Shown: positions 8,750 to 40,716 of the stretch, in pieces
Position numbering within the stretch: the stretch's first letter is position 1
How the letters are laid out: every line of letters begins with the position of its first letter
Source: an uncultured Saprospiraceae bacterium
GTDB lineage: Bacteria; Bacteroidota; Bacteroidia; Chitinophagales; Saprospiraceae
Assembly: GCA_938015595.1 (NCBI GenBank)
Contig: CALLPI010000017.1
Location: 1-64,000, forward strand
Length of the DNA: 64,000 nucleotides
Direction of reading: 5' to 3'
The notes under the pieces: model-generated
Seen by the model: only the letters and a program-made list of their open reading frames with translations
Told to the model about the DNA's origin: nothing
Database searches by the model: none
Position numbers and translations under genes: made by a program

Positions 8750-9670
8750 ATGAAAAAATTAACTCTACTCACTATATTGATCTGGGCAGGCACAACAAGC
8801 CTTCGCGCGCAAGATCAGGCCATCTTTTCGCATTACAACATCAATCCCATACTCATCAATCCGGCTGCAGCGGGCTTTGGCGGGCAACACCAGGCACTGT
8901 TCAATGCGCGGTTGCAGTGGGTGGGCTTCGAGGATGCGCCCCAAACCTTTATGGCACAATACAACGGCCCCTTGGGTAGGACTTTTGGCATTGGGGTAGG
9001 GGTGCTGACGGAGCGGGCTGCGCAGTTGCAGCGTATGCGTGCTCAGTTGAACTATGCCTTCCGTTTTCAGATACAAGACGACTGGGACCTGGCGGCAGGC
9101 TTTGCCACGGAACTGCATCAAATACGCCTGAACGGCAATATAGCTGGCGGTGCTTTTTTTGACTTGGGCGACCGCATCATCAATGCCAATATGGACGGGG
9201 TTCGGTTTTTGGATGCTTCGGTAGGCCTGTTTGGTACATTCAGGGAAAATACCTTTGGCGGTTTTGCTCTTACTAATCTGGTGCGCACCCGCTTAGATGG
9301 CATTGTGAATACGGATGAGAAAGAATCATTTCTGAACTACTACATCTTTTACCTGGGGCACCGCTTTGAGGTGGAGGATCTTAAGTTCAATATGGAGCCA
9401 TCTATCATGGTGCGCCAGATACGAGACACACCCTTTCAGATGGACATTAACTTCAAAGCTGGCTTTCTGGATGACCAGTTGCTGGCCGGTGTATCGTATC
9501 GCTCACTGGGAGTTTTGGGGGTGATGTTGGGCACACAGGTATCTATGTTCAACCTCTATTACACTTATGACGTTTCTTTTCAGCGCTTTCAACAGTATAA
9601 TGGCGGGGCGCATGAAGTAACTGTTGCCTTGAATTTTAAAAACATGTACCGCCGCGAACGGCGCTATTGA
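8750..9670 (+). CDS. PorP/SprF family type IX secretion system membrane protein
   Basis: 306 residues. A signal peptide (about 1-20, ending LRAQ) is followed directly by DQAIFSHYNINPILINPAAAGF, the typical start of PorP/SprF proteins (mature Q...YM.N....NPA..G). The rest is a beta-barrel-like sequence ending NFKNMYRRERRY. Family members sit in the outer membrane and work with type B T9SS cargo; SprF is needed for SprB secretion. Its position 94 bp behind a type B cargo gene is the classic pairing and suggests it serves that protein. A strong terminator follows the gene. Confidence 0.9.
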   Translation: MKKLTLLTILIWAGTTSLRAQDQAIFSHYNINPILINPAAAGFGGQHQALFNARLQWVGFEDAPQTFMAQYNGPLGRTFGIGVGVLTERAAQLQRMRAQLNYAFRFQIQDDWDLAAGFATELHQIRLNGNIAGGAFFDLGDRIINANMDGVRFLDASVGLFGTFRENTFGGFALTNLVRTRLDGIVNTDEKESFLNYYIFYLGHRFEVEDLKFNMEPSIMVRQIRDTPFQMDINFKAGFLDDQLLAGVSYRSLGVLGVMLGTQVSMFNLYYTYDVSFQRFQQYNGGAHEVTVALNFKNMYRRERRY

Positions 9671-30678: not shown

Positions 30679-33600
30679 ATGATCAGAACGCTTGCCTTCT
30701 CTCTTATCTTTGTGTGTTGCACGAGCCAACTTTTGGCTCAGATACCGCGCAGTGCTCCTGCAGAACGCTCCGGCGCTGCTGCTGTAACAGGCCAGCCTAA
30801 ATTGTTTTGCAACAACAACGCCGGCACGGTCACCTTTGGCGACATTATAGGCCAGAGCAACGACGGTGCCCCAGGCGATATTTTTCTCTGCTTTGGCGAC
30901 ACCTTACCCATCTTCCACAATGGCGATGCCAACCTTACTGGCGACCCACAGCCAGCTACGCCTCCAGGCATTGGCTATGTATTTTATGACTGCCCGCCCA
31001 CGCGCACTGGCCCTACCCTGGCCGACATACAGGCCGACCCCTGCATCAACCGCACCAGCCCCATCCTCATAAACGGTAACCCAGTAAACCAGGATGCTAC
31101 CAACCGTATGTGGATTGCCAGCCAACTACCCAACGGCAACATCACCTTCGCCAACAATGGCCTGCTGCAGTCAGCTTTTAACAACGGCGTAGCGCAGCCC
31201 ATCCGCTTCTGGTTTGCCCCCATAACCCTGGATAATTTTGCCTCCCAGAGCTTTGAGCAATCTAGCGACACAACGGGGCCTTGCGTCAATGTCAATACAG
31301 CGGCGGCCTTTTCAGTGGTCTATCTCAACGCCATTCAGGCCTCCAACTTCAACATTAGCGCTGGTGTCAACGGATGCCAGGGATCGTTCCTCCTGAGAGG
31401 CGGCCTACCGGAGTTCGACGCCAATACCAGCTATGACATAGATATCGTGCTGAGTACCAACCCCAGCATCAGAGGTGTAGTGACCAATGTGCCCATGCAT
31501 AATGGTACAGTGCAGTTTACAGTGCCGCAACCTGGGGTGTACAACATTACAGTGGAAGATGGAAAGAGCTGCGGGGTGTCGTTCACTATGGACATGAGCG
31601 CCTGCCGCGCGGTCACGTTTTTCCTGCCACTGACCAACGCGCTGCCCGGCTCCAACGTCTGCCTCGACGTGCGCGTCAGAGATTTTATAAACGTTGGCGC
31701 CATGCAGTTCTCTATGCAGTGGGACCCCGCCGTACTGCAATACTCGGCAGTCAATGGCTTTAATCCGGCGCTGATTGGCTTCAATGAGAGTGCTTTCAAC
31801 ACTACGTCAGCGCTGACTAGCACTGGGCGCATCACAGTATCCTGGGCCGACCTCACCTTCATGGGCGTGACCCTGCCCGATAGCGCCGTTATCTTTCGCC
31901 TGTGTTTCAATGTCATCGGCAGCTTGGGGCAGTTCTCGGAGGTGTCCTTTACCAACAACCCCACCAACACCGAAATCGGCGACGCCAATCTCAACCCGTA
32001 CGGCTTCCTGGGCCGTAGTGGCTTTGTCAATGTGTCCAATAGTTTGCTTTTTGTCAATCTCACCCAGGACAGTGTGTCCTGCGCGGGCGTTGCTGATGGT
32101 GCGTTCACCCTTACTGTGGCCAATGGTACGCCGCCTTATGTGTTCAACTGGAATAGCCTGGCACCTTTGCCGCCAGCCTCTGGAGGAGATGCCATTTCCA
32201 ACTCAGGCGGCTCTTTTCGCGTAGACAATCGCGCTGCTGGCTCCTATCGGGTAGTTGTCACAGACTCCAGCGTGCCGGCCATTGTGGTGGTAGATACTGT
32301 AACCATACTGCGCGGCCCGTTTATTGGCGTCACTATGGACGCTACCCTGCCCCGATGTAATGGCGAGAGTAACGGCTCGGTGGCTGCCCGCATCAGCCTG
32401 GATGGCGTGGTGACGCCTAATCCACCGGGATTTACTTATAGTTGGAACACGCCCAACACACCCAATGCCCCTATGCTGAACGACCTGCCCTTTGGGTTTT
32501 ATTCCGTCACGGTTACTGATGCACGTGGTTGCAGCGCCCAAGCAGGGGCTACTTTGACCCAGCCTGCCGCCATCAACATTGTAGAAAACATCACCAATGC
32601 CGCCTGCACTGGCGCAGCCAACGGCTCTATTACCACCACTGCTACCGGCGGTACGCCTGCTGCCGGCAATTACACCTTTACCTGGAGCGGCGGTCTGGGT
32701 ACGGTAATTGCCTCCAGCTCTACGGTGGCCAACCTCAACCCTGGCCAGTACAGTGTAACAGTGACTGACGACAACGGCTGCCAGGCAACCGAAAACTACA
32801 CCGTCGGCGCTATCAAAACCCTGAGTATCAATGCTGCCATTACTGACATCACTTGCTTTGGCGCTTGCAACGGCGCCATCCTGGCCAACGGCACTACTGC
32901 TGGTGCGCCAGCGGCTACGCCTTACACCTTTACCTGGACAGGCTCGCTGAACACTGCGCCAGTTAATACGCCCACATCGAGCAATGCTACAGGACTTTGT
33001 GCGGGTGTTTACACTCTCTCCATGCAGGATGCTGACCCAGCAGGCTGCCAGGTGTCGCGCACTTTTACACTGACCCAACCAGACACCCTGACAGCTACAC
33101 TGCTACAACAAGTCAACGAAACTTGCCTGGTGGGCAACGACGGGCGCGCTGTGCCGCGCGTCACGGGGGGTACAGCGCCCTACACCTACGCCTGGCGCAA
33201 CGCGCAGAACGCAGTCGTCTCCACTGATTCCGTAGCCACTGGTTTGCGTGCCGGTGCCTACACCTTGTTGGTGACCGACAGCCGTAACTGCTCTGCCACA
33301 CTCAATGTAAACATCTTGCTGCCTACGCCGCCCAGCATTGCGCCCATTCAAAATGATACAGTAGCCTGTGCTGGTAGTACCAATGGGCGCCTTAGCATAA
33401 CAGCCACGCCTGGCGGTGCACCCATTGCTACCTACACTTGGAGCAACGGCATGAGCGGGCCAAATATCAGTGGTTTGGCGCCAGGGGTGTATCGCGTCAC
33501 TGTGACCGGGCAAGACGCTTGCTTCAGCGTGGATTCTGCTATGGTGGTAGCGCCTGAGCCACTCGTCATTGATAGTATCGTAGGCACTTCGCCTTCCTGT

Positions 33601-35352
33601 CCGGGGCTCAGCAACGGTCGGATCACTGTGTTTGTACGCGGTGGCACAGCTCCCTATCGCTACATCTGGGCCAACCAACCGCAAAACGACACCCTTCAAT
33701 TCAACGTCTATCCTGCTCGTCCAGCCGGTACGTACTCCGTCACTGTAGTAGATGCCAACAACTGCCCCGCTGCTATGGGCACGGGCGTGGTCGCCGACCC
33801 GCCGCGTATCCAGATTAGCTTCAGTGGAGTACAAGGTGTGAGTTGTTTTGAAGGTGTTTGCAACGGAAGGGCTTCTGCTGCGGCCATTTATAGTGATGGC
33901 ACGCCAGGCACGTTCACCTTCAATTGGGCATCTGGTCAGGTAGCCATGGGCGTATCCTCTTCTGTAGCCAATGACCTTTGCGCAGGATTTCAAACGCTTG
34001 TGGTGTCAGATGCCAACAACTGTTTCAGCGTAGACTCGGTGAACATACCCAGCCCCCCGGCCATCAATATCGTAGTGGATGTGCAGCCCGTTAGTTGCAA
34101 TGGGTTCAACGACGGGCGTATTACGCTCAACGTCAGCGGTGGCACGCCTGGGTATCAATACCTCTGGATTGAAAACGGCGCCATTGTGCCAAGTATTAGC
34201 AATCTGACCGCCGGCCAGTATAATGCCGTAGTAACTGACGCCAATGGATGCAACAAAACTCAGCGCGTGCAAGTAAGCGAACCCGACCGCTTGCGCTTGT
34301 TTATTGACCAGGCGGTGTCCACTCCGCGTGTTACTTGTGCTGGAAGTACCGATGGCGTCATCAAGGTCAATTTTAATAGTACGGACAATATCAACCCCGT
34401 AGGTGCCAATCCTTACACGTGGTTGAATAATGTGGCGCCTGCCTCTTCGCCCATTGCCTCAGGGCTAATGCCAGGTACGTATTCTGTGACTATCACTGAT
34501 ACCAAGGGCTGCCGCGATAGCATCAGCTATACCATTACCTCGCCACCGCCCATCACTGCCGTCATCCCGCCGCCGGCTGAGCCGCGCTGTTTTGGCGAGT
34601 CCACCCTCATCGTCATTCAAAGCATATCGGGCGGCAATGGTACTACCCTGCTTGACTATACCTACATGGTGGACAACAACGGCCTCATTTTCCAACCCGA
34701 CCAACCTGCTACTGTGTTTGCCGGGCCGCACACCATCACTATCATGGATGCGGCTGGTTGTACCTACGAACAGCAAATCTTCATCAACCAGCCACAGGAA
34801 CTCCAGGTTGTATTCGATCCTGAGGTCGTAGTGGTAGAACTGGGCGATACTACCACGCGCCTCAATCCGCTGATTACCTCCTCGCTGCCCATCCAGCGTT
34901 TCGTCTGGAGCCCTGTTACCTACCTGTCTGATACTTCCTTGCAGCAACCCTTGCTGATACGACCCTTGGACGACATCGAGTACACCCTGACTGTCGTAGA
35001 TGTAAACGGCTGTACGACCAGCGGCTCAGTACTGGTAGAGGTGGATCGCAACCGCAACGTGTATATTCCCAACGCTTTTTCACCCAATGGCGACGGCCCC
35101 AACGATGAGTTCCGGATCTTCGCCTGCCTGGGCGTGGAGGTCATCACCTATGTGCGCATTTTTAATCGCTGGGGCGACTTCTTGTACGAGCAAAAAGATA
35201 TTGCTCCTGACTGCATTGGCGGCTCACGCCTGTGGGATGGCACTGTGAAAGGCAAGCCTATGGCGCAAGGCGTGTATGTTTATATGGTGGAAGTACGCTT
35301 CCTGGATGGAGTAACGCTGCTATACCGCGGCGACGTAACGATTGTGCGGTAA
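30679..35352 (+). CDS. Large T9SS type B surface protein with one cohesin and eleven SprB-type repeats
   Basis: 1557 residues. The parts are: signal peptide (about 1-21); a unique N-terminal region (about 40-308) of unknown fold; one cohesin-like domain (about 310-455) with NVCLDV, MQFSMQWDPAVLQYSAV and VIFRLCFNV; eleven SprB-type repeats (about 463-1400); a PKD-like stretch; and a type B sorting domain (about 1460-1557) beginning NVYIPNAFSPNGDGPNDEF. The cohesin retains the two cysteines found in the 2514-residue protein. A surface adhesin or binding role is likely. No PorP/SprF gene follows; the one at 8750 may serve both. Its stop is 2 bp from the convergent SWIM gene, without a terminator between. 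Confidence 0.85.
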   Translation: MIRTLAFSLIFVCCTSQLLAQIPRSAPAERSGAAAVTGQPKLFCNNNAGTVTFGDIIGQSNDGAPGDIFLCFGDTLPIFHNGDANLTGDPQPATPPGIGYVFYDCPPTRTGPTLADIQADPCINRTSPILINGNPVNQDATNRMWIASQLPNGNITFANNGLLQSAFNNGVAQPIRFWFAPITLDNFASQSFEQSSDTTGPCVNVNTAAAFSVVYLNAIQASNFNISAGVNGCQGSFLLRGGLPEFDANTSYDIDIVLSTNPSIRGVVTNVPMHNGTVQFTVPQPGVYNITVEDGKSCGVSFTMDMSACRAVTFFLPLTNALPGSNVCLDVRVRDFINVGAMQFSMQWDPAVLQYSAVNGFNPALIGFNESAFNTTSALTSTGRITVSWADLTFMGVTLPDSAVIFRLCFNVIGSLGQFSEVSFTNNPTNTEIGDANLNPYGFLGRSGFVNVSNSLLFVNLTQDSVSCAGVADGAFTLTVANGTPPYVFNWNSLAPLPPASGGDAISNSGGSFRVDNRAAGSYRVVVTDSSVPAIVVVDTVTILRGPFIGVTMDATLPRCNGESNGSVAARISLDGVVTPNPPGFTYSWNTPNTPNAPMLNDLPFGFYSVTVTDARGCSAQAGATLTQPAAINIVENITNAACTGAANGSITTTATGGTPAAGNYTFTWSGGLGTVIASSSTVANLNPGQYSVTVTDDNGCQATENYTVGAIKTLSINAAITDITCFGACNGAILANGTTAGAPAATPYTFTWTGSLNTAPVNTPTSSNATGLCAGVYTLSMQDADPAGCQVSRTFTLTQPDTLTATLLQQVNETCLVGNDGRAVPRVTGGTAPYTYAWRNAQNAVVSTDSVATGLRAGAYTLLVTDSRNCSATLNVNILLPTPPSIAPIQNDTVACAGSTNGRLSITATPGGAPIATYTWSNGMSGPNISGLAPGVYRVTVTGQDACFSVDSAMVVAPEPLVIDSIVGTSPSCPGLSNGRITVFVRGGTAPYRYIWANQPQNDTLQFNVYPARPAGTYSVTVVDANNCPAAMGTGVVADPPRIQISFSGVQGVSCFEGVCNGRASAAAIYSDGTPGTFTFNWASGQVAMGVSSSVANDLCAGFQTLVVSDANNCFSVDSVNIPSPPAINIVVDVQPVSCNGFNDGRITLNVSGGTPGYQYLWIENGAIVPSISNLTAGQYNAVVTDANGCNKTQRVQVSEPDRLRLFIDQAVSTPRVTCAGSTDGVIKVNFNSTDNINPVGANPYTWLNNVAPASSPIASGLMPGTYSVTITDTKGCRDSISYTITSPPPITAVIPPPAEPRCFGESTLIVIQSISGGNGTTLLDYTYMVDNNGLIFQPDQPATVFAGPHTITIMDAAGCTYEQQIFINQPQELQVVFDPEVVVVELGDTTTRLNPLITSSLPIQRFVWSPVTYLSDTSLQQPLLIRPLDDIEYTLTVVDVNGCTTSGSVLVEVDRNRNVYIPNAFSPNGDGPNDEFRIFACLGVEVITYVRIFNRWGDFLYEQKDIAPDCIGGSRLWDGTVKGKPMAQGVYVYMVEVRFLDGVTLLYRGDVTIVR
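32065..34800 (+). repeat. Eleven SprB-type repeats
   Basis: Protein-level repeats, each opening with C.G..NG, for example CNGESNGSV, CTGAANGSI, CFGACNGAI and CNGFNDGRI. Each has a central G.P.YTF.W and a closing GxYxVxVTDxxxC. They are diverged at DNA level, and several have inserts. Confidence 0.75.
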
Positions 35353-35354
35353 GT

Positions 35355-36680
35355 TCAAATTGCAAGTAACTGACCATTTGCTTCCATAGCCAACGGGAGC
35401 AGGCAGCCGTCCTGCCATTCGCCGGTCAGGTTCATCGGATGCCCGCCGCTCACGGCCAGGATTTGTAAGCCAACGTCCTCGCTTGCCATCAGGGGTACGG
35501 CTTGCTTTCTGTTGTCCAGTAGTAAAAAATCCGGCGCCTGATATACGATGGCCATGCCCTTGAGGTACACTGGCATGTAGAGCAGCCAAGGATTTGCTGC
35601 CAGCGCCCTGGCGTATTCCAGGGCAGCATCTTCCAGGTGGTTATGGCCTGTTACATTTTCGAGAATACTCATCTCATGTGTCAGTTGCAGTGATTGCGCT
35701 ACAGCGCGCAAGGGATAGGCCGAAGGGTAGTAGGTCAGCGCGCCGGCGTACACGCTGCCCAACAGCCAATGGTCGAGGAAAGGGTTGTCGTCGCCCCATA
35801 CAAAATCGAGTAACAATGCCCAGCGCTGCTGCCGCACCCCGTAGAGCCACACCCGGCGAAAACGCAATTGCTCCTCCACGCCTTCGTGTATGGCCATGAC
35901 CAGCCAGTGGTCGGTCACTGGGGGGCATACGGCAAGGCTTTCCTTTCGGATAGCCAGCCCGGCAGTGGTCAGTAGGTCTTGTACCATAGGTGGCGGCAGT
36001 TGCTCTATGCGCTTGAAGCCTTCTACGAGCAGGTACAGTTCGCTGATGGTGTCGAGTATTTGCTTGTGTCTGGGTTTTCCGGCAGCAGGGTGTGCCAGTA
36101 GGCGCAGGCGGCGGGCTATTCCGCCAAGTTTAGCGTCCACCATGCGAGCTGCGGCTTGCTCCCACCATGCCGGCGGGTGGTTTTGGACATTGGCCAGCCC
36201 TTGTTGCGCCAGGTCGCGCAGCCAGTCATCTAGCCCTTGTATACCGGCAGCCATGAGTTCCAGGCTCTTGTCTTTGTTTTTCTGGCGTTGGGCTGCCAAA
36301 GCTGGGTCAGTTGCTGCCATGTGAGAGGCTTTGATACGCTGCTGGCGTTTGAGGCGGGTTTCGAGCCATTGGCTTGCCCAGGCGGGTTCCGGGGTGTTTA
36401 CCTGGAAGCAGTCGGGGTAATGGAGCAACAGTAGCAGCAGTGCCAGGGCGTGTTTGCAGGGCGATCGCTTCGCCGGGCAGGAGCATTGGAAGGCTGGACC
36501 ATCGAAATCTACCACCGTTTGGTAAGATAGGCCGCCAGTACCTTTGCACTCGCCCCATACAGCACGCTCATGTCGTGCCTGTTGGAGCCAAAGGGGCGGG
36601 TGTCCTAGCTGGCGGGCGCAGTTCCAGGTGGCGTTATCGGGGGCAAGGCTGCGGATGCGCTCGGCAGTCCAGACAAACAT
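35355..36680 (-). CDS. SWIM zinc finger domain protein
   Basis: 441 residues from the ATG at 36680 (MFVWTAERIRSLAPD), a start typical for SWIM proteins; an ATG at 36710 in the same frame would overlap the previous gene by 23 bp. The SWIM motif CxCx6CxH is complete at C66, C68, C75 and H77 (QCSCPAKRSPCKHALAL) and binds zinc; SWIM domains contact DNA or proteins. The rest is alpha-helical with no enzyme motif. It is the last gene of a parA-led operon, 7 bp after the preceding stop. In other bacteria such proteins usually neighbour MoxR/VWA genes, not ParA, so the context is unusual. Confidence 0.8.
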   Translation of the reverse strand: MFVWTAERIRSLAPDNATWNCARQLGHPPLWLQQARHERAVWGECKGTGGLSYQTVVDFDGPAFQCSCPAKRSPCKHALALLLLLLHYPDCFQVNTPEPAWASQWLETRLKRQQRIKASHMAATDPALAAQRQKNKDKSLELMAAGIQGLDDWLRDLAQQGLANVQNHPPAWWEQAAARMVDAKLGGIARRLRLLAHPAAGKPRHKQILDTISELYLLVEGFKRIEQLPPPMVQDLLTTAGLAIRKESLAVCPPVTDHWLVMAIHEGVEEQLRFRRVWLYGVRQQRWALLLDFVWGDDNPFLDHWLLGSVYAGALTYYPSAYPLRAVAQSLQLTHEMSILENVTGHNHLEDAALEYARALAANPWLLYMPVYLKGMAIVYQAPDFLLLDNRKQAVPLMASEDVGLQILAVSGGHPMNLTGEWQDGCLLPLAMEANGQLLAI

Positions 36681-36687
36681 GGCAAAG

Positions 36688-37200
36688 TCAGCGCTTTTCG
36701 TATTCGGCAATGAAGGCTGCTACAATCTGGTCCACTATGGTGCGCAGTTGTTTGCGCTCCTCGCGGGCAATGGATTTGAGTTTGTTGACCTTGGCTTCGT
36801 CCAAAAACAGGACGAGACGACGGACAGCCTGCCCTGCTGGCCCAGCGCTAACAGACTCACCCTCCCGGGGCAGCGTATTGCGGATGAGGGCATCCAGCCC
36901 GCGCGGTGCTGTGCGGCCGGGGGTATTGGCCTCGTCGCTGGAGACAGTGTCAGTGCGCTGTTGAGTTTGCTCTGCGAATGATTCCTCAAAGGCCTCTTCC
37001 AGGAAAGAAGCCAGATCGGAGGTAAAACTCTTGCTAGCATGCTTGGATGGGGCATCCACTAGGGTAGCTTTGGATTTGTGCAGTTTCTTAGGGGGGCTGG
37101 GATCGGGCAGCTCGAACAACAGCATGGCGCCGGCGGCAGTACTGTCGTTGCCGGATTCAAAAAGGCCTTCCCAGCCATCGGTGAATTTCTTTTTGCTCAT
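36688..37200 (-). CDS. Small ParA-associated protein with ribbon-helix-helix-like C-terminus
   Basis: 170 residues. The first 120 are charged and low in structure (KKKFTDGWEGLFESGN, and a central acidic stretch SFLEEAFEESFAEQ). The last 45, from RRLVLFLDEAKVNKLKSIA to the end, read as one strand plus two helices, as in ribbon-helix-helix DNA-binding domains. Its ATG overlaps the parA stop (ATGA), indicating translational coupling. By position it is the candidate partner of ParA, playing the role a ParB/ParG/Omega-like adaptor plays in partition cassettes (inference). No database family is recognised. Confidence 0.6.
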   Translation of the reverse strand: MSKKKFTDGWEGLFESGNDSTAAGAMLLFELPDPSPPKKLHKSKATLVDAPSKHASKSFTSDLASFLEEAFEESFAEQTQQRTDTVSSDEANTPGRTAPRGLDALIRNTLPREGESVSAGPAGQAVRRLVLFLDEAKVNKLKSIAREERKQLRTIVDQIVAAFIAEYEKR

Positions 37201-37985
37201 ACACGCTGCTGGCGAAGTGAGGAAGGTTGGGCGGCGGCTTCCATACGCTCCAGGATTTCTTTGCAGAGGTTGAGATAGTCTTCTGCACCAATGCTGCTGG
37301 GGCTGTAGCTGAAGATATCTTGCCGTTGAGAAGGTGCTTCAGCCAGGGCCACATTGTCGCGAATCATAGTTTGAAACACTTTGTCGCCGAAGTATTTTTT
37401 AATCATCTCCACCACATCGCGGTTGAGTACTTTGCGGCTGTCGTACATGGTAGCAATGACGCCACCGATTTCCAGTTGTTTGTTGAGGCGGAAGCGCACC
37501 TTGTCTATGACCTGCTTGATTTTGGCCAGCCCCTGTAGCGCCAGAAACTCAGTCTGCATAGGAATGTAAACAAAATCGCTGGCAGTTAAGGCATTGAGCG
37601 TGAGTAAGCCCAGTGAAGGCGGGCAGTCCATGACGATGAAATCGTACATATCGCGCAAGGGGTCGAGGAGCTCGGCCAGGATATATTCGCGGCCAGCCTC
37701 GTTGATTAGCTCCGATTCCACGCCCGACAACTCAATACGGGAAGTGATAATGTCCAGGTTGTCCTTTACAGTGAAAGGCATAAACTCGGCCTCGCCGCGA
37801 AAAGCCTCATATACAGTGACAGGCTGCCGAGGTACGCCCAGGGAAATGGTAAGGCTGGCCTGCGGGTCAAGATCTACCAGCAGGACGCGCTTGCCCAGAC
37901 GAGCCAGCCCGGCGGCAATATTGATGGCACTGGTGGTCTTGCCTACGCCGCCTTTATGGTTTAGCAGCGAAAAGATTCTTGCCAT
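37197..37985 (-). CDS. ParA family ATPase
   Basis: 262 residues. The deviant Walker A motif KGGVGKTT is at 11-18, preceded by NH. DLDPQASLT is near 38-46 and the Walker B-like DFIVMDCPPSLG near 115-125. MQTEFLALQGL and a C-terminal YD-type region complete a chromosomal/plasmid ParA (Soj-like) without a DNA-binding N-terminal extension. Such ATPases position DNA or protein complexes by nucleoid-bound gradients. The partner downstream is not a ParB but a small RHH-like protein, so this is not the canonical parAB locus. No parS-like palindrome is seen nearby. Confidence 0.85.
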   Translation of the reverse strand: MARIFSLLNHKGGVGKTTSAINIAAGLARLGKRVLLVDLDPQASLTISLGVPRQPVTVYEAFRGEAEFMPFTVKDNLDIITSRIELSGVESELINEAGREYILAELLDPLRDMYDFIVMDCPPSLGLLTLNALTASDFVYIPMQTEFLALQGLAKIKQVIDKVRFRLNKQLEIGGVIATMYDSRKVLNRDVVEMIKKYFGDKVFQTMIRDNVALAEAPSQRQDIFSYSPSSIGAEDYLNLCKEILERMEAAAQPSSLRQQRV

Positions 37986-38044
37986 AAGACGCTTGGTTCT
38001 TGCTTTTGCAATGAACGGGTAAAGTAAACGCTTTTGAGGGAAAT

Positions 38045-38221
38045 ATGGCTAAAAAGGTAGAAAAATATTCTCGAAACGCTGATTTTAAGGTAGGGAGTGA
38101 ATCCAGTAACTGCCACGAGAGTTTCGGTAAAGCACGCACAATTGCCGCCGAGGCCTTTGAAGATGCCAATTTTTTACTTTCTCGCGTTGCTCGTGGAGGA
38201 GGGGAGAAGGTTGCAGCATAA
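38045..38221 (+). CDS. Possible 58-residue protein divergent from parA
   Basis: An ATG at 38045 opens a 58-codon frame ending TAA at 38221. It begins MAKKVEKYSRNADFKVG and ends LLSRVARGGGEKVAA; the central part KARTIAAEAFEDANFLL would form a helix. The composition (Lys, Glu, Ala-rich, balanced) is protein-like and the frame fills most of the 313-bp gap 37986-38298 between parA and the PBP gene. No homologue is recognised. The parA promoter must share the first 60 bp. Confidence 0.4.
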   Translation: MAKKVEKYSRNADFKVGSESSNCHESFGKARTIAAEAFEDANFLLSRVARGGGEKVAA

Positions 38222-38298
38222 TGGCATGCTTGTTTCTGAAAAAATTCGATAAAAGTTTTTTATATCCCCAGCGGGCTTCGATTCATGCAAGAATGCCA

Positions 38299-40716
38299 CT
38301 ACCGACCATTTCCTGGCAATTCGATGATTTCATCTTCCAGGAAGGGGTTTTCTTGGTCTGTAGAATCTGGGAGCGTTTCATATGGCGGGGGAATGCGGAA
38401 GGCACAGGCTAGCTTACGGCTCCATTCGGGCTTCAGTTCTGGGAATGTGCCGCCCTGCCAGGCTTCAAACTCAGGCGATTTCTTGAGGCGCTGCATGAAG
38501 TAAGCCCATACAGGCAGGGCGGAGGCAGCGCCTTGACCATTTTCAAAATTGCGGAAGCGTACCAGGGGCGAGTCGCCGCCTACCCACACGCCAGCAATGA
38601 TTCGTGGTGTGTAGCCAATAAACCAGCCGTCGGCATGGTTTTGCGAAGTACCGGTTTTGCCAGCCAGGGGAATATCATGGTGTCCATAGCGCCAGCGTAT
38701 GCGGCTAGCCGTGCCATAGATGGCTACCGACTGCAGCATCTTGGTCATGAGAGCGGCATGTTCTTCGCTGATAGCTTGGCGGGGCTTCGTGGCGGTGAAG
38801 TCGGCCAGCACCTGGCCTTTATAGTTCTCGATGCGGGTGATGAACACCGGTGGCACATGACGGCCTTCGGAGGCAAACACAAAGAAAGGCTGAATCATTT
38901 CCAGCAGCGATACCTCTGCTGAGCCAAGCGCAATGGAGGGTTCGGCCGGGATATTGCCACTGATGCCCAGGTTTCGAGCCATCTGAATGACCTTTTGCAC
39001 GCCCAGACGCATGATGAGGTGTACCGATACAGTATTGACAGAGTTGGTCAGGGCGCCCTCCATGGAGTAAGAGCCGCCATAGATGCCGTCAGAGTTCTGG
39101 GGTATCCAGTCGTCCATATCAGTTCCGTCGGGGCGGAAGTGAGGTTCAGGGTCGTCGCGTCGCCAGTCTTTGATAGCCCAGTCGCCTTCGGCATATTCGT
39201 GATACACACGTAGTTGGTTGGGCAGTTGTTCACAAGGCGGGATGCTATCGGCTATGGCAGCCATATACACTATAGGTTTGAATACTGAGCCGGCCTGACG
39301 TCGAGCGCGCACGTGGTCGTACTGGAAAAACTCGTAGTCAATGCCGCCTACCCAGGCTCTGATGAAGCCAGTGTAGGGCTCTATGGCCAGGAAGCCCACC
39401 TGGAGTATGCCTAGGTGATAGCGCACAGAGTCAAGGGGGCTCATTTCTACCTGTTTGGGGCCGTCCCAGGTAAAGATGGTCATCATGACCTTTTGCTGGA
39501 AGATGGCGTCAATTTCGGCATCAGTGAGGCCTTGACGTTTGAGTTGCTTGTATCGTAGGGAGTTGCGTACACCCAAGCGAATAGTCTGCGTGTCGTGCCA
39601 AGGGGCAGTCATGCCGCGCCAATGTTCGTCAAATGTTTTCTGCATGCCAGCCAAGTGCTCGCGTACGGCTTCCTCGGCTATCCGTTGCATGCCAGTGTGT
39701 AAAGTAGTATATATTTTGAGGCCGTCAGTATCCAAGTCATAGGGTTCACCATTAGGCTTGCGTTTATCTTTGAGGATGCGCTCCACCTCTTGGCGCACAA
39801 ACTCGCGAAAATACGGAGCGATGCCCTCATTGCGCATGATGGGGTTGTAGTGGAGTTCGAGGGGGCGCTGTTGCAGCGAGTCGGCTACCTGTTGGCTGAG
39901 GTAGCCATATTTGTGCATCAGCGCGAGCACTAAGTTGCGCCGCTCCAATGCCTTATCGGCAAATTTGACTGGATTGTAATTCGAGGTTGCTTTGAGCGTG
40001 CCGATGAGCATAGCACTCTCCTCTGGCAGCAAGGCGCCAGCCGGCTTACTGAAAAAGCGGCGGGCGGCTACGTCAATGCCATAAACATTCTCCGGGAAGG
40101 GTACGGTGTTAAGATACAGGGCCAAGATATCTTCTTTGGTATAGATACGCTCCAGGCGTCGGGCAATGACGATCTCTCGCAACTTATTGATGAACAATGA
40201 AAAAAAGCGATACTCTTGCCGAGGTAGCAGGTTTTTGGCTAATTGCTGGCTTATGGTACTGCCGCCGCCACCGGAACGATCGCCTTGCAGGATGGTGCGA
40301 TACAGCACCCGTCCCCAAGCCACAAAATCAATGCCGTGATGCTGGTAAAAACGGGTATCTTCTGTGGCAATCAGCGCTTGGCTTAGATGAGCAGGCAGGT
40401 CTTCGTAGCGCACTACTGTGCGGTACTGCTTGAAATAGCGCCCCAGCAGCGCGCTATCGGCGGCGTATATGTCGGAGGCTACCTGGGTCTCTATAGATGC
40501 CAGCTCTCTGGCCGTAGGCACTGTGAGCGATATGGCAAAAAACAACAAAAAAATAAAGGTAAAAACCGAGGCAGTGAGGATGCTCATCGTCCTGACCCAA
40601 CGGCTCAGGCGAGGCCAATGCACTCTGAAACGCTGCCAGCGGCTTGAAAATGGTCTTATCAGATTAGCTGTAAAGTCGGATATTTTTCTAATAGTATTTG
40701 GCAAGGGGAAACGCAT
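38299..40716 (-). CDS. Class A penicillin-binding protein 1A (transglycosylase/transpeptidase)
   Basis: 805 residues from the ATG at 40716 (MRFPLPNTIRKIS); upstream codons in this frame are not protein-like. A transmembrane anchor lies near 45-65 (LTASVFTFIFLLFFAISL). The GT51 glycosyltransferase domain has the catalytic Glu in IATEDTRFYQHHGID and GGGGSTISQQLAKN. The transpeptidase domain has SxxK in RRQAGSVFKP, SxN in TNSVNTVS, and KTG in LAGKTGTSQNHADGW. It polymerises and cross-links peptidoglycan at the outer face of the inner membrane. The gene is divergent from manC; a TACCTTTA box at about 40749-40756 (minus strand) lies 33 nt before the start. Confidence 0.92.
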   Translation of the reverse strand: MRFPLPNTIRKISDFTANLIRPFSSRWQRFRVHWPRLSRWVRTMSILTASVFTFIFLLFFAISLTVPTARELASIETQVASDIYAADSALLGRYFKQYRTVVRYEDLPAHLSQALIATEDTRFYQHHGIDFVAWGRVLYRTILQGDRSGGGGSTISQQLAKNLLPRQEYRFFSLFINKLREIVIARRLERIYTKEDILALYLNTVPFPENVYGIDVAARRFFSKPAGALLPEESAMLIGTLKATSNYNPVKFADKALERRNLVLALMHKYGYLSQQVADSLQQRPLELHYNPIMRNEGIAPYFREFVRQEVERILKDKRKPNGEPYDLDTDGLKIYTTLHTGMQRIAEEAVREHLAGMQKTFDEHWRGMTAPWHDTQTIRLGVRNSLRYKQLKRQGLTDAEIDAIFQQKVMMTIFTWDGPKQVEMSPLDSVRYHLGILQVGFLAIEPYTGFIRAWVGGIDYEFFQYDHVRARRQAGSVFKPIVYMAAIADSIPPCEQLPNQLRVYHEYAEGDWAIKDWRRDDPEPHFRPDGTDMDDWIPQNSDGIYGGSYSMEGALTNSVNTVSVHLIMRLGVQKVIQMARNLGISGNIPAEPSIALGSAEVSLLEMIQPFFVFASEGRHVPPVFITRIENYKGQVLADFTATKPRQAISEEHAALMTKMLQSVAIYGTASRIRWRYGHHDIPLAGKTGTSQNHADGWFIGYTPRIIAGVWVGGDSPLVRFRNFENGQGAASALPVWAYFMQRLKKSPEFEAWQGGTFPELKPEWSRKLACAFRIPPPYETLPDSTDQENPFLEDEIIELPGNGR

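Follow-up and report, generated by a model that had tools for sequence, protein, structure and literature searches.

The locus described here raises the question of whether a sorting device of plasmid type can become part of the lasting equipment of a bacterial chromosome. Chromosome segregation in bacteria is attributed to ParB of the helix-turn-helix (HTH) type, and the ribbon-helix-helix (RHH) adaptors known come from plasmids and archaea. In an uncultured Saprospiraceae bacterium (Bacteroidota; GenBank assembly GCA_938015595.1), the first 64,000 nucleotides of contig CALLPI010000017.1, here called the window, carry a gene for a ParA-type ATPase coupled to a gene for a small protein, the adaptor, with a predicted RHH fold at its C-terminus. 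The explanation that accounts best for the evidence, with a probability of about 0.6, is that these genes form a two-gene ParA/RHH-adaptor module, homologous to plasmid-sorting cassettes, which has been fixed in the Saprospiraceae chromosome beside ParABS and is SegAB-like, with several docking motifs. The elements on which this explanation leans are listed below.

37197..37985, minus strand: parA, a ParA-type Walker ATPase of 262 amino acids (aa), identified by Pfam, alignment, residue counts, tree and solved-structure alignments.
36688..37200, minus strand: the adaptor protein, 170 aa, identified as an open reading frame (ORF) and by family alignment A1.
37153..37194, minus strand: adaptor motif 1, residues 3-16, a candidate ParB-like ParA-docking motif (conservation, weight matrix, plasmid partners).
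36994..37035, minus strand: adaptor motif 2, residues 56-69, a second motif copy and predicted helix (motif 1 weight matrix, AlphaFold2 helix 59-84).
36874..36900, minus strand: adaptor motif 3, residues 101-109, GLDALIRNT, a weaker third copy (A1, AlphaFold2 helix 102-109, weight matrix).
36691..36828, minus strand: predicted RHH domain, residues 125-170 of the adaptor (AlphaFold2, Foldseek, VIA-align, Protein Data Bank (PDB) sequence match).

The window is part of contig C17 in a genome of 3.77 Mb and 27 contigs. parA, the adaptor gene and a gene for a SWIM zinc-finger protein stand in tandem on the minus strand, and the parA stop codon overlaps the adaptor ATG as ATGA at 37197-37200. A preliminary description of the locus had laid out these genes in the same way (ParA, ATGA overlap, 170-residue protein, SWIM zinc finger), and ORF coordinates and Pfam bear this layout out. 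ParA matches AAA_31 with an E-value of 7.1e-55 over residues 3-173 of 262; it has the signature NHKGGVGKT, with K11, K16 and D40, a Walker A motif from about residue 10 and no N-terminal HTH extension. Because the ordinary parA/parB pair of the same genome sits on contig C5, the ParA of the window is a second system.

What is conserved is a unit of two genes, ParA and adaptor. Among 60 genomes, the adaptor is present in 25 (its own included), and the same 25 have a ParA 66-83% identical to that of the window. The adaptor adjoins parA in 24 of the 25, and in G029 it is broken by contig ends, with one piece beside parA; the neighbourhood survey that the preliminary description had proposed thus found ParA and the small protein kept side by side in 24 of 60 genomes. 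The spacing between the two genes varies, reaching 624 nt in G022 by the first start codon. A set of named loci comprises at least 24 with ParA identities of 65-77% (19 titled Saprospiraceae, the rest Lewinellaceae, Lewinella, Neolewinella, Chitinophagales or Bacteroidetes). An adaptor match of 102-173 bits lies downstream of ParA in 22 of the 24 listed; of the remaining loci, L208 gives a truncated 16-bit match at a contig end and L199 runs off its contig. In a wider sample of the family, 91 of 150 genomes carry the adaptor, and nearly all of these have a single full match. Further gene families are each common to at most four of the ParA loci compared, in which flanks are short at contig ends, and no conserved cargo gene, mobile gene or toxin gene of the kind that accompanies an RHH antitoxin stands beside the pair in them, ParA being the sole conserved neighbour of the adaptor. 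Across the phylum, the adaptor model found matches in 13 of 395 genomes; three belong to the same family, and ten are partial, covering the C-terminal region only. The suggestion that this might be an undescribed system of Bacteroidota stands in part: the long chromosomal adaptor was found in one family of the phylum only in the samples searched, and no paper on the ParA/adaptor pair was among the matches listed from the open-licence PMC literature, but the SWIM gene, which had been counted as a member, is not a conserved part of the unit.

Presence of the pair on an RpoB tree of 130 of the 150 family genomes, those for which a full RpoB was fetched, requires four parsimony changes (500 shuffled labellings: mean 39.4, minimum 31); on the same tree, full-length SWIM requires 20, any SWIM homologue 16 and PaaZ 21. 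With four changes only, the pair therefore looks vertically inherited, and largely so on the chromosome; it shares a contig with rpoB in four near-complete genomes (G081, G086, G149 and G151).

The relatives of this ParA point to plasmids and viruses. The ParAs of the pair form one clade of 46 rows with a support of 0.83, some rows being the same organism under two names, and this clade nests in another (support 0.90) together with 20 ParAs that come from viral contigs or other genomes, most of them Bacteroidota. The 37 chromosomal ParAs stand apart from it. Signature residues follow the same division: at residue 10, all 46 pair ParAs and 19 of the 20 others have H, and all 37 chromosomal ones have Q; residue 209 is R in the pair and in the 20 others, mostly H in the chromosomal set; and residue 213 is A, S or T in the pair and the 20 others, and K or R in 36 of 37 chromosomal ParAs. 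Position 236 also separates the ParA of the window from chromosomal ParABS ParAs. Related ParAs, all below 60% identity, occur in 79 plasmid records (E ≤ 1e-60, best 59%) and 40 phage records (E ≤ 1e-40). In a genome of another family (G047, locus L124, 14527-15324), a ParA 58% identical to that of the window was observed with no adaptor match in the genome; the contig ends about 500 bases downstream.

Four plasmids were opened (from Tenacibaculum, Flavobacterium, Adhaeribacter and Bacteroides), with ParAs 54-59% identical to that of the window. In all four, the gene after parA encodes a protein of 85-102 aa that matches the adaptor hidden Markov model with 38-49 bits. Three of these partners carry the N-terminal motif at 22-28 bits, a score reached by 0 of 300 shuffles; the Bacteroides partner scores 3.3 bits, a level that 3 of 300 shuffles attain. 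Two of the four pairs adjoin a DnaB-like helicase or replication initiation gene. The resemblance to plasmid partition cassettes noticed in the preliminary description is borne out by these homologous pairs, and by ParG as the best solved match of the adaptor. The chromosomal adaptor differs from the plasmid adaptors, in which one motif copy was seen, by about 40-90 additional residues with further copies. A separate arrangement was seen in L221 (5752-8183, Bacteroides sp.): after a ParA/short-RHH pair comes a gene for a protein of 577 aa that has both a ParB_N and an HTH_ParB domain.

The family alignment A1 of 25 adaptor proteins shows four blocks, namely motifs 1, 2 and 3 and the C-terminal RHH, in which R128 is invariant. 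The AlphaFold2 model, built from the window protein and the named loci (27 rows), has a mean predicted local distance difference test score (pLDDT) of 71.7. Helices are predicted at 135-148 and 152-169, with a pLDDT of 95-97 per block of ten residues, at 59-84, and at 102-109 on motif 3, and residues 1-60 reach a block pLDDT of 42-66. The RHH-like C-terminus read from the sequence earlier thus reappears in the model, and the low pLDDT of residues 1-60 would fit the disordered N-terminal region. By sequence, ParG is the best solved relative of the adaptor profile (E 0.0014, PDB sequences), and it ranks first in Foldseek at an E-value of 0.3, no row reaching 0.001. In VIA-align, the top Z of 6.9, middling by the tool's own note, corresponds to a root-mean-square deviation of 1.3 over 44 residues; the rows cover approximately residues 125-170 (the widest 87-170), and nearly all 50 are proteins that we take, by their titles, to be RHH. 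Solved RHH neighbours in Foldseek and VIA-align are mainly DNA binders by title.

Matches of single members are weaker. RHH_3 is matched by 6 of the 25 adaptors (best E 0.0018), ParG by 6 (best E 0.0052) and the Arc-like phrog_582 by 19 (best E 3.9e-5); the adaptor of the window itself matches none of these three at E ≤ 1, and no Pfam family at E ≤ 0.1. No ParB domain appears among 25 of the 45 weak families listed for the 25 members. An identity as SctQ was set aside, its match standing at an E-value of 0.014 and 15 bits against a cut-off of 100.8. Taken with the models, the C-terminus of the adaptor is a predicted RHH.

The part of the adaptor ahead of the RHH domain offers candidate contacts for ParA. 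In A1, motif 1 has the consensus M-S/A-KKxFTxGLESLF (core KKxFxxGLxSLF) at the very N-terminus, motif 2 reads KxFxxDLxSFLxxAF, and motif 3 reads SGLDALIRxT, where D103, L105 and T109 never vary among the 25 rows and R107 hardly does. A weight matrix was built from motif 1 of 45 non-redundant adaptors and run over the rest of each protein. Its best window falls on the motif 2 region in all 45 adaptors; 43 of these windows are in register, and those of L100 and L207 are shifted. Of the best windows, 40 score above the 95% level obtained with shuffled bodies, and 35 also clear the 99% level. Motif 3 supplies the second-best window in 27 of the 45. Since motif 2 passes the shuffle levels in most adaptors and motif 3 in few, motif 2 is well supported as a repeat of motif 1, and motif 3 is less supported as a third copy. 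Among 33 chromosomal ParBs, 19 have the top window of the same matrix within their first 30 positions, where 3.5 would be expected by position alone, in a scan that did not control for N-terminal composition and in which some ParB pieces lack their first residues; 15 of these 19 windows are in the motif frame, for example KKELGKGIRALLSN. The adaptor N-terminus thus resembles, in sequence, the peptide by which ParB docks on ParA. The N-terminal peptide of ParB is described as binding and activating ParA (PMC11229316, PMC12462528), and the passages cited on the RHH adaptor of plasmid TP228 place its N-terminal helix at the ParA dimer interface (PMC5393062).

These properties suggest how the module might work, and by analogy the pair probably positions DNA or another cargo. 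ParA with ATP would bind the nucleoid, and the adaptor would dimerise through its C-terminal RHH domain, which may also hold the cargo, most likely DNA at putative chromosomal sites. Where the docking peptides of the adaptor meet nucleoid-bound ParA-ATP, ATP would be hydrolysed and the cargo would move along the ParA gradient. RHH adaptors are described as not spreading on DNA, and omega as needing at least four contiguous repeats for a stable ParA complex (PMC9499535). With two to three docking motifs per chain, and hence four to six per dimer, the adaptor could supply the ParA contacts in place of a tandem centromere array. Docking on ParA, stimulation of its ATPase, DNA as the cargo and movement are steps that we infer from related systems.

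Among these systems, the type Ib partition loci, TP228 ParF/ParG and pSM19035 delta/omega, share with the pair a ParA lacking an HTH and, next to it, an RHH adaptor; the disordered, ParA-binding N-terminal part of their adaptors may have a counterpart in the low-pLDDT, motif-bearing N-terminus here. The TP228 adaptor is described as having 76 residues with a docking helix (PMC5393062). In contrast, the pair is chromosomal and largely vertical, its adaptor has 170 residues against 76, it carries two to three motif copies, and no shared centromere repeats were found upstream of it. The Bacteroidota plasmid pairs have a homologous ParA, a homologous adaptor and, in three of four, the N-terminal motif. 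Chromosomal ParABS shares the ParA fold and a ParB N-terminal peptide resembling motif 1, but no ParB domain was reported for the adaptor, the genome has a separate parAB, and the ParA differs at positions 10, 209, 213 and 236. Orphan ParA/MinD cargo systems (McdAB, PpfA and others) are described as combining an extra ParA with a protein that contacts the ATPase through its N-terminus (PMC10241942, PMC9178275); unlike such proteins, the partner here is a predicted RHH protein, kin to plasmid adaptors.

Archaeal SegAB may be regarded as the nearest working analogue on a chromosome, with a chromosomal ParA homologue and an RHH partner in one operon. In the passages of PMC12284271 that bear on it, SegB binds scattered palindromes, two palindromes lie upstream of segAB, and SegB is said to lack sequence identity to bacterial proteins. 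The likeness seen is one of gene makeup; SegAB is archaeal, two upstream palindromes there stand against one marginal palindrome here, and none of the five PDB sequence matches of the adaptor profile at E ≤ 1 was named SegB. A bolder form of the explanation would make the pair a second bacterial chromosome-organising machine beside ParABS, SegAB-like, in which the adaptor marks scattered sites and its built-in motifs replace a centromere array; we put this forward tentatively, as a possibility rather than an expectation.

Several observations weigh against the explanation, beginning with the DNA upstream of parA. This was searched in 48 parA loci (49 minus one duplicate), 300 bases each, for enriched k-mers, repeats and spaced palindromes. 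No repeat word is shared upstream of parA across the 48 loci, and no direct repeats were found in the window at 37960-38420. In the same set, the enrichment of k-mers amounts to promoter-like words and one marginal palindrome, and 7 of 48 loci have some 7-mer over-repeated relative to 95% of shuffles (about 2.4 expected), with a different word in each. The palindrome is the following.

38000..38011, plus strand: palindrome TTGC-N4-GCAA just upstream of parA, a candidate operator, statistically marginal.

It occurs in 4 of 48 loci, at a z of 4.7 where the highest value among 25 shuffles is 4.4, and it shows no clear excess in the window, with 5 occurrences against 2.6 expected and 8 of 100 shuffles as high. 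Further counter-evidence comes from the tree of the pair, which agrees modestly with that of chromosomal ParA and ParB (Spearman 0.30 over 23 shared genomes, 6 of 2000 permutations as high), and from the motifs: just 7 of 45 adaptors have a second-best window above the 95% shuffle level, 6 of these windows being at motif 3, and the ParB of the same genome does not rank its N-terminal window first. The docking motif of ParB is described with a central Arg/Lys (PMC12462528), for which motif 1 has no clear counterpart in A1, its residues there being mostly acidic or small (uncounted). In the RHH strand, V130 and F132 of this genus occupy positions presumably equivalent to the base-contacting threonines of CopG. 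Because centromere repeats were not found at the operon (sites may lie elsewhere), the pair was not filed as a member of type Ib.

Some of these points favour a different cargo. The pair could position a protein, such as an envelope, secretion or division machine or a storage body, with the RHH serving only to dimerise or to bind protein, as happens with partners of other orphan ParAs; the missing shared array upstream of parA and the hydrophobic side chains that this genus has at two positions of the strand would fit. Related ParAs with other partners are also relevant. Non-RHH partners follow ParAs 51-60% identical to that of the window in L212 (5795-6283), L213 (5858-6475), L214 (4819-5259), L218 (5810-6097) and L220 (2097-2378); they carry the same N-terminal docking motif at 21-23 bits, a score that none of 300 shuffles attained, and a C-terminus of the LRHELFLWRNG...LKYNP..NEIEE type. 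Since related ParAs have motif-bearing partners without an RHH, cargo modules would have been swapped in this ParA group; the shared motif perhaps reflects such a swap, possibly into a protein-positioning system. The non-RHH type gave 0 matches in 296 phylum genomes, in a search without a positive control that therefore shows little. Against a protein cargo for the pair itself stand the nearest partner relatives found, which are plasmid RHH proteins (replication genes adjoin two of the four examined), its solved RHH neighbours, mainly DNA binders by title, and the absence of a conserved cargo gene near the pair in the loci compared. On balance, we consider a protein cargo rather unlikely.

The third gene of the tandem requires separate treatment.

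35355..36680, minus strand: SWIM zinc-finger protein (PF04434), adjoining the pair only here among the genomes examined.

Its SWIM domain scores 26.3 bits (Pfam cut-off 19.6). The start is listed as TTG at 36710, but an ATG at 36680 is likelier, 7 nt past the adaptor stop, which agrees with the few base pairs noted in the preliminary description. Membership in the unit, claimed there as well, fails on conservation. SWIM homologues occur in 25 of the 60 genomes and 94 of the 150, and SWIM as a conserved operon member was rejected, as it adjoins the pair in 1 of the 82 genomes that have both. In all 81 others it is distant or elsewhere: five carry it on the contig of the pair but no closer than 63 kb, and in the others, both genomes of the same genus among them, it is on another contig (contig breaks may hide a few adjoining cases). 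At 8 of 25 SWIM-family loci (L077, L080, L081, L108, L109, L111, L112 and L116), the gene instead adjoins two other families, in L108 RNase III and ketoacyl synthase. In the open-licence literature listed, SWIM zinc fingers and ParA came together in one paper, on a plasmid.

A true three-gene system, in which the SWIM protein works with the pair though the genes usually lie apart, nevertheless has statistical arguments beyond the tandem with its 7-nt gap in the window. In the 150 genomes, both occur in 82, the pair alone in 9, SWIM alone in 12 and neither in 47 (odds ratio 36), so that the pair accompanies SWIM in 82 of its 94 genomes and occurs in 9 of the 56 without it; the link persists in each of three genome-size classes. 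Eleven of the 12 SWIM-only matches begin beyond the zinc finger, and 61 of the 62 full-length SWIM proteins in the tree fall in pair-bearing genomes, though the genes are unlinked. The Pagel test against the pair gives a likelihood ratio (LR) of 13.8 when full-length SWIM is scored and of 11.5 when every SWIM homologue counts, above both controls (PaaZ 0.8, epimerase 1.1; presence of the controls was scored by E-value limits of our own choice). Of 120 simulations of independent traits, one reached 13.8, and the simulated 95% level is 9.3. The three smaller pair-less groups (G105; G093, G065 and G165; G012) contain no SWIM homologue of any kind either. However, 20 of 81 pair-bearing genomes in the tree have no full-length SWIM, and the Pagel test rests on few events and has one fitted rate at its bound. 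Because the pair changes state four times and one large pair-less clade gives most of the signal, the correlation is a lead and not proof. A functional link is kept at low probability because of this correlated retention; as a system of three genes, we regard it as improbable. Shorter SWIM homologues of about 310 aa, observed separately, match only the region beyond the zinc finger.

Two further readings deny the pair a sorting role for the host. A leftover or selfish partition cassette of an integrated plasmid or prophage would explain why the ParA groups with those of viral contigs and other loci (support 0.90) and shares their signature residues, but it is very hard to reconcile with a pair kept over much of the family with four changes on the tree, nearly always as one full match per genome, with no conserved mobile genes beside it in the loci compared and an adaptor longer than the plasmid forms. 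A regulatory pair, with the RHH protein mainly an operon repressor, could draw on the fold and the palindrome upstream of parA but is barely credible, since it leaves ParA and the repeated motif unexplained and the palindrome is weak and rarely conserved.

Next to the tandem, a gene at 30679-35352 converges on the SWIM gene; its product, of 1557 aa, contains SprB repeats and a cohesin domain as well as a CHU_C type IX sorting domain. Elsewhere in the window, a PorP/SprF protein and a further cohesin-domain protein are encoded (8750-9670 and 290-1078).

For the biology of this family, a plasmid-type ParA/RHH pair kept over much of its members beside parAB would show a mobile sorting device turned into a cell function. 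The pair also makes it testable how an RHH adaptor that does not spread gathers enough ParA contacts without a centromere array.

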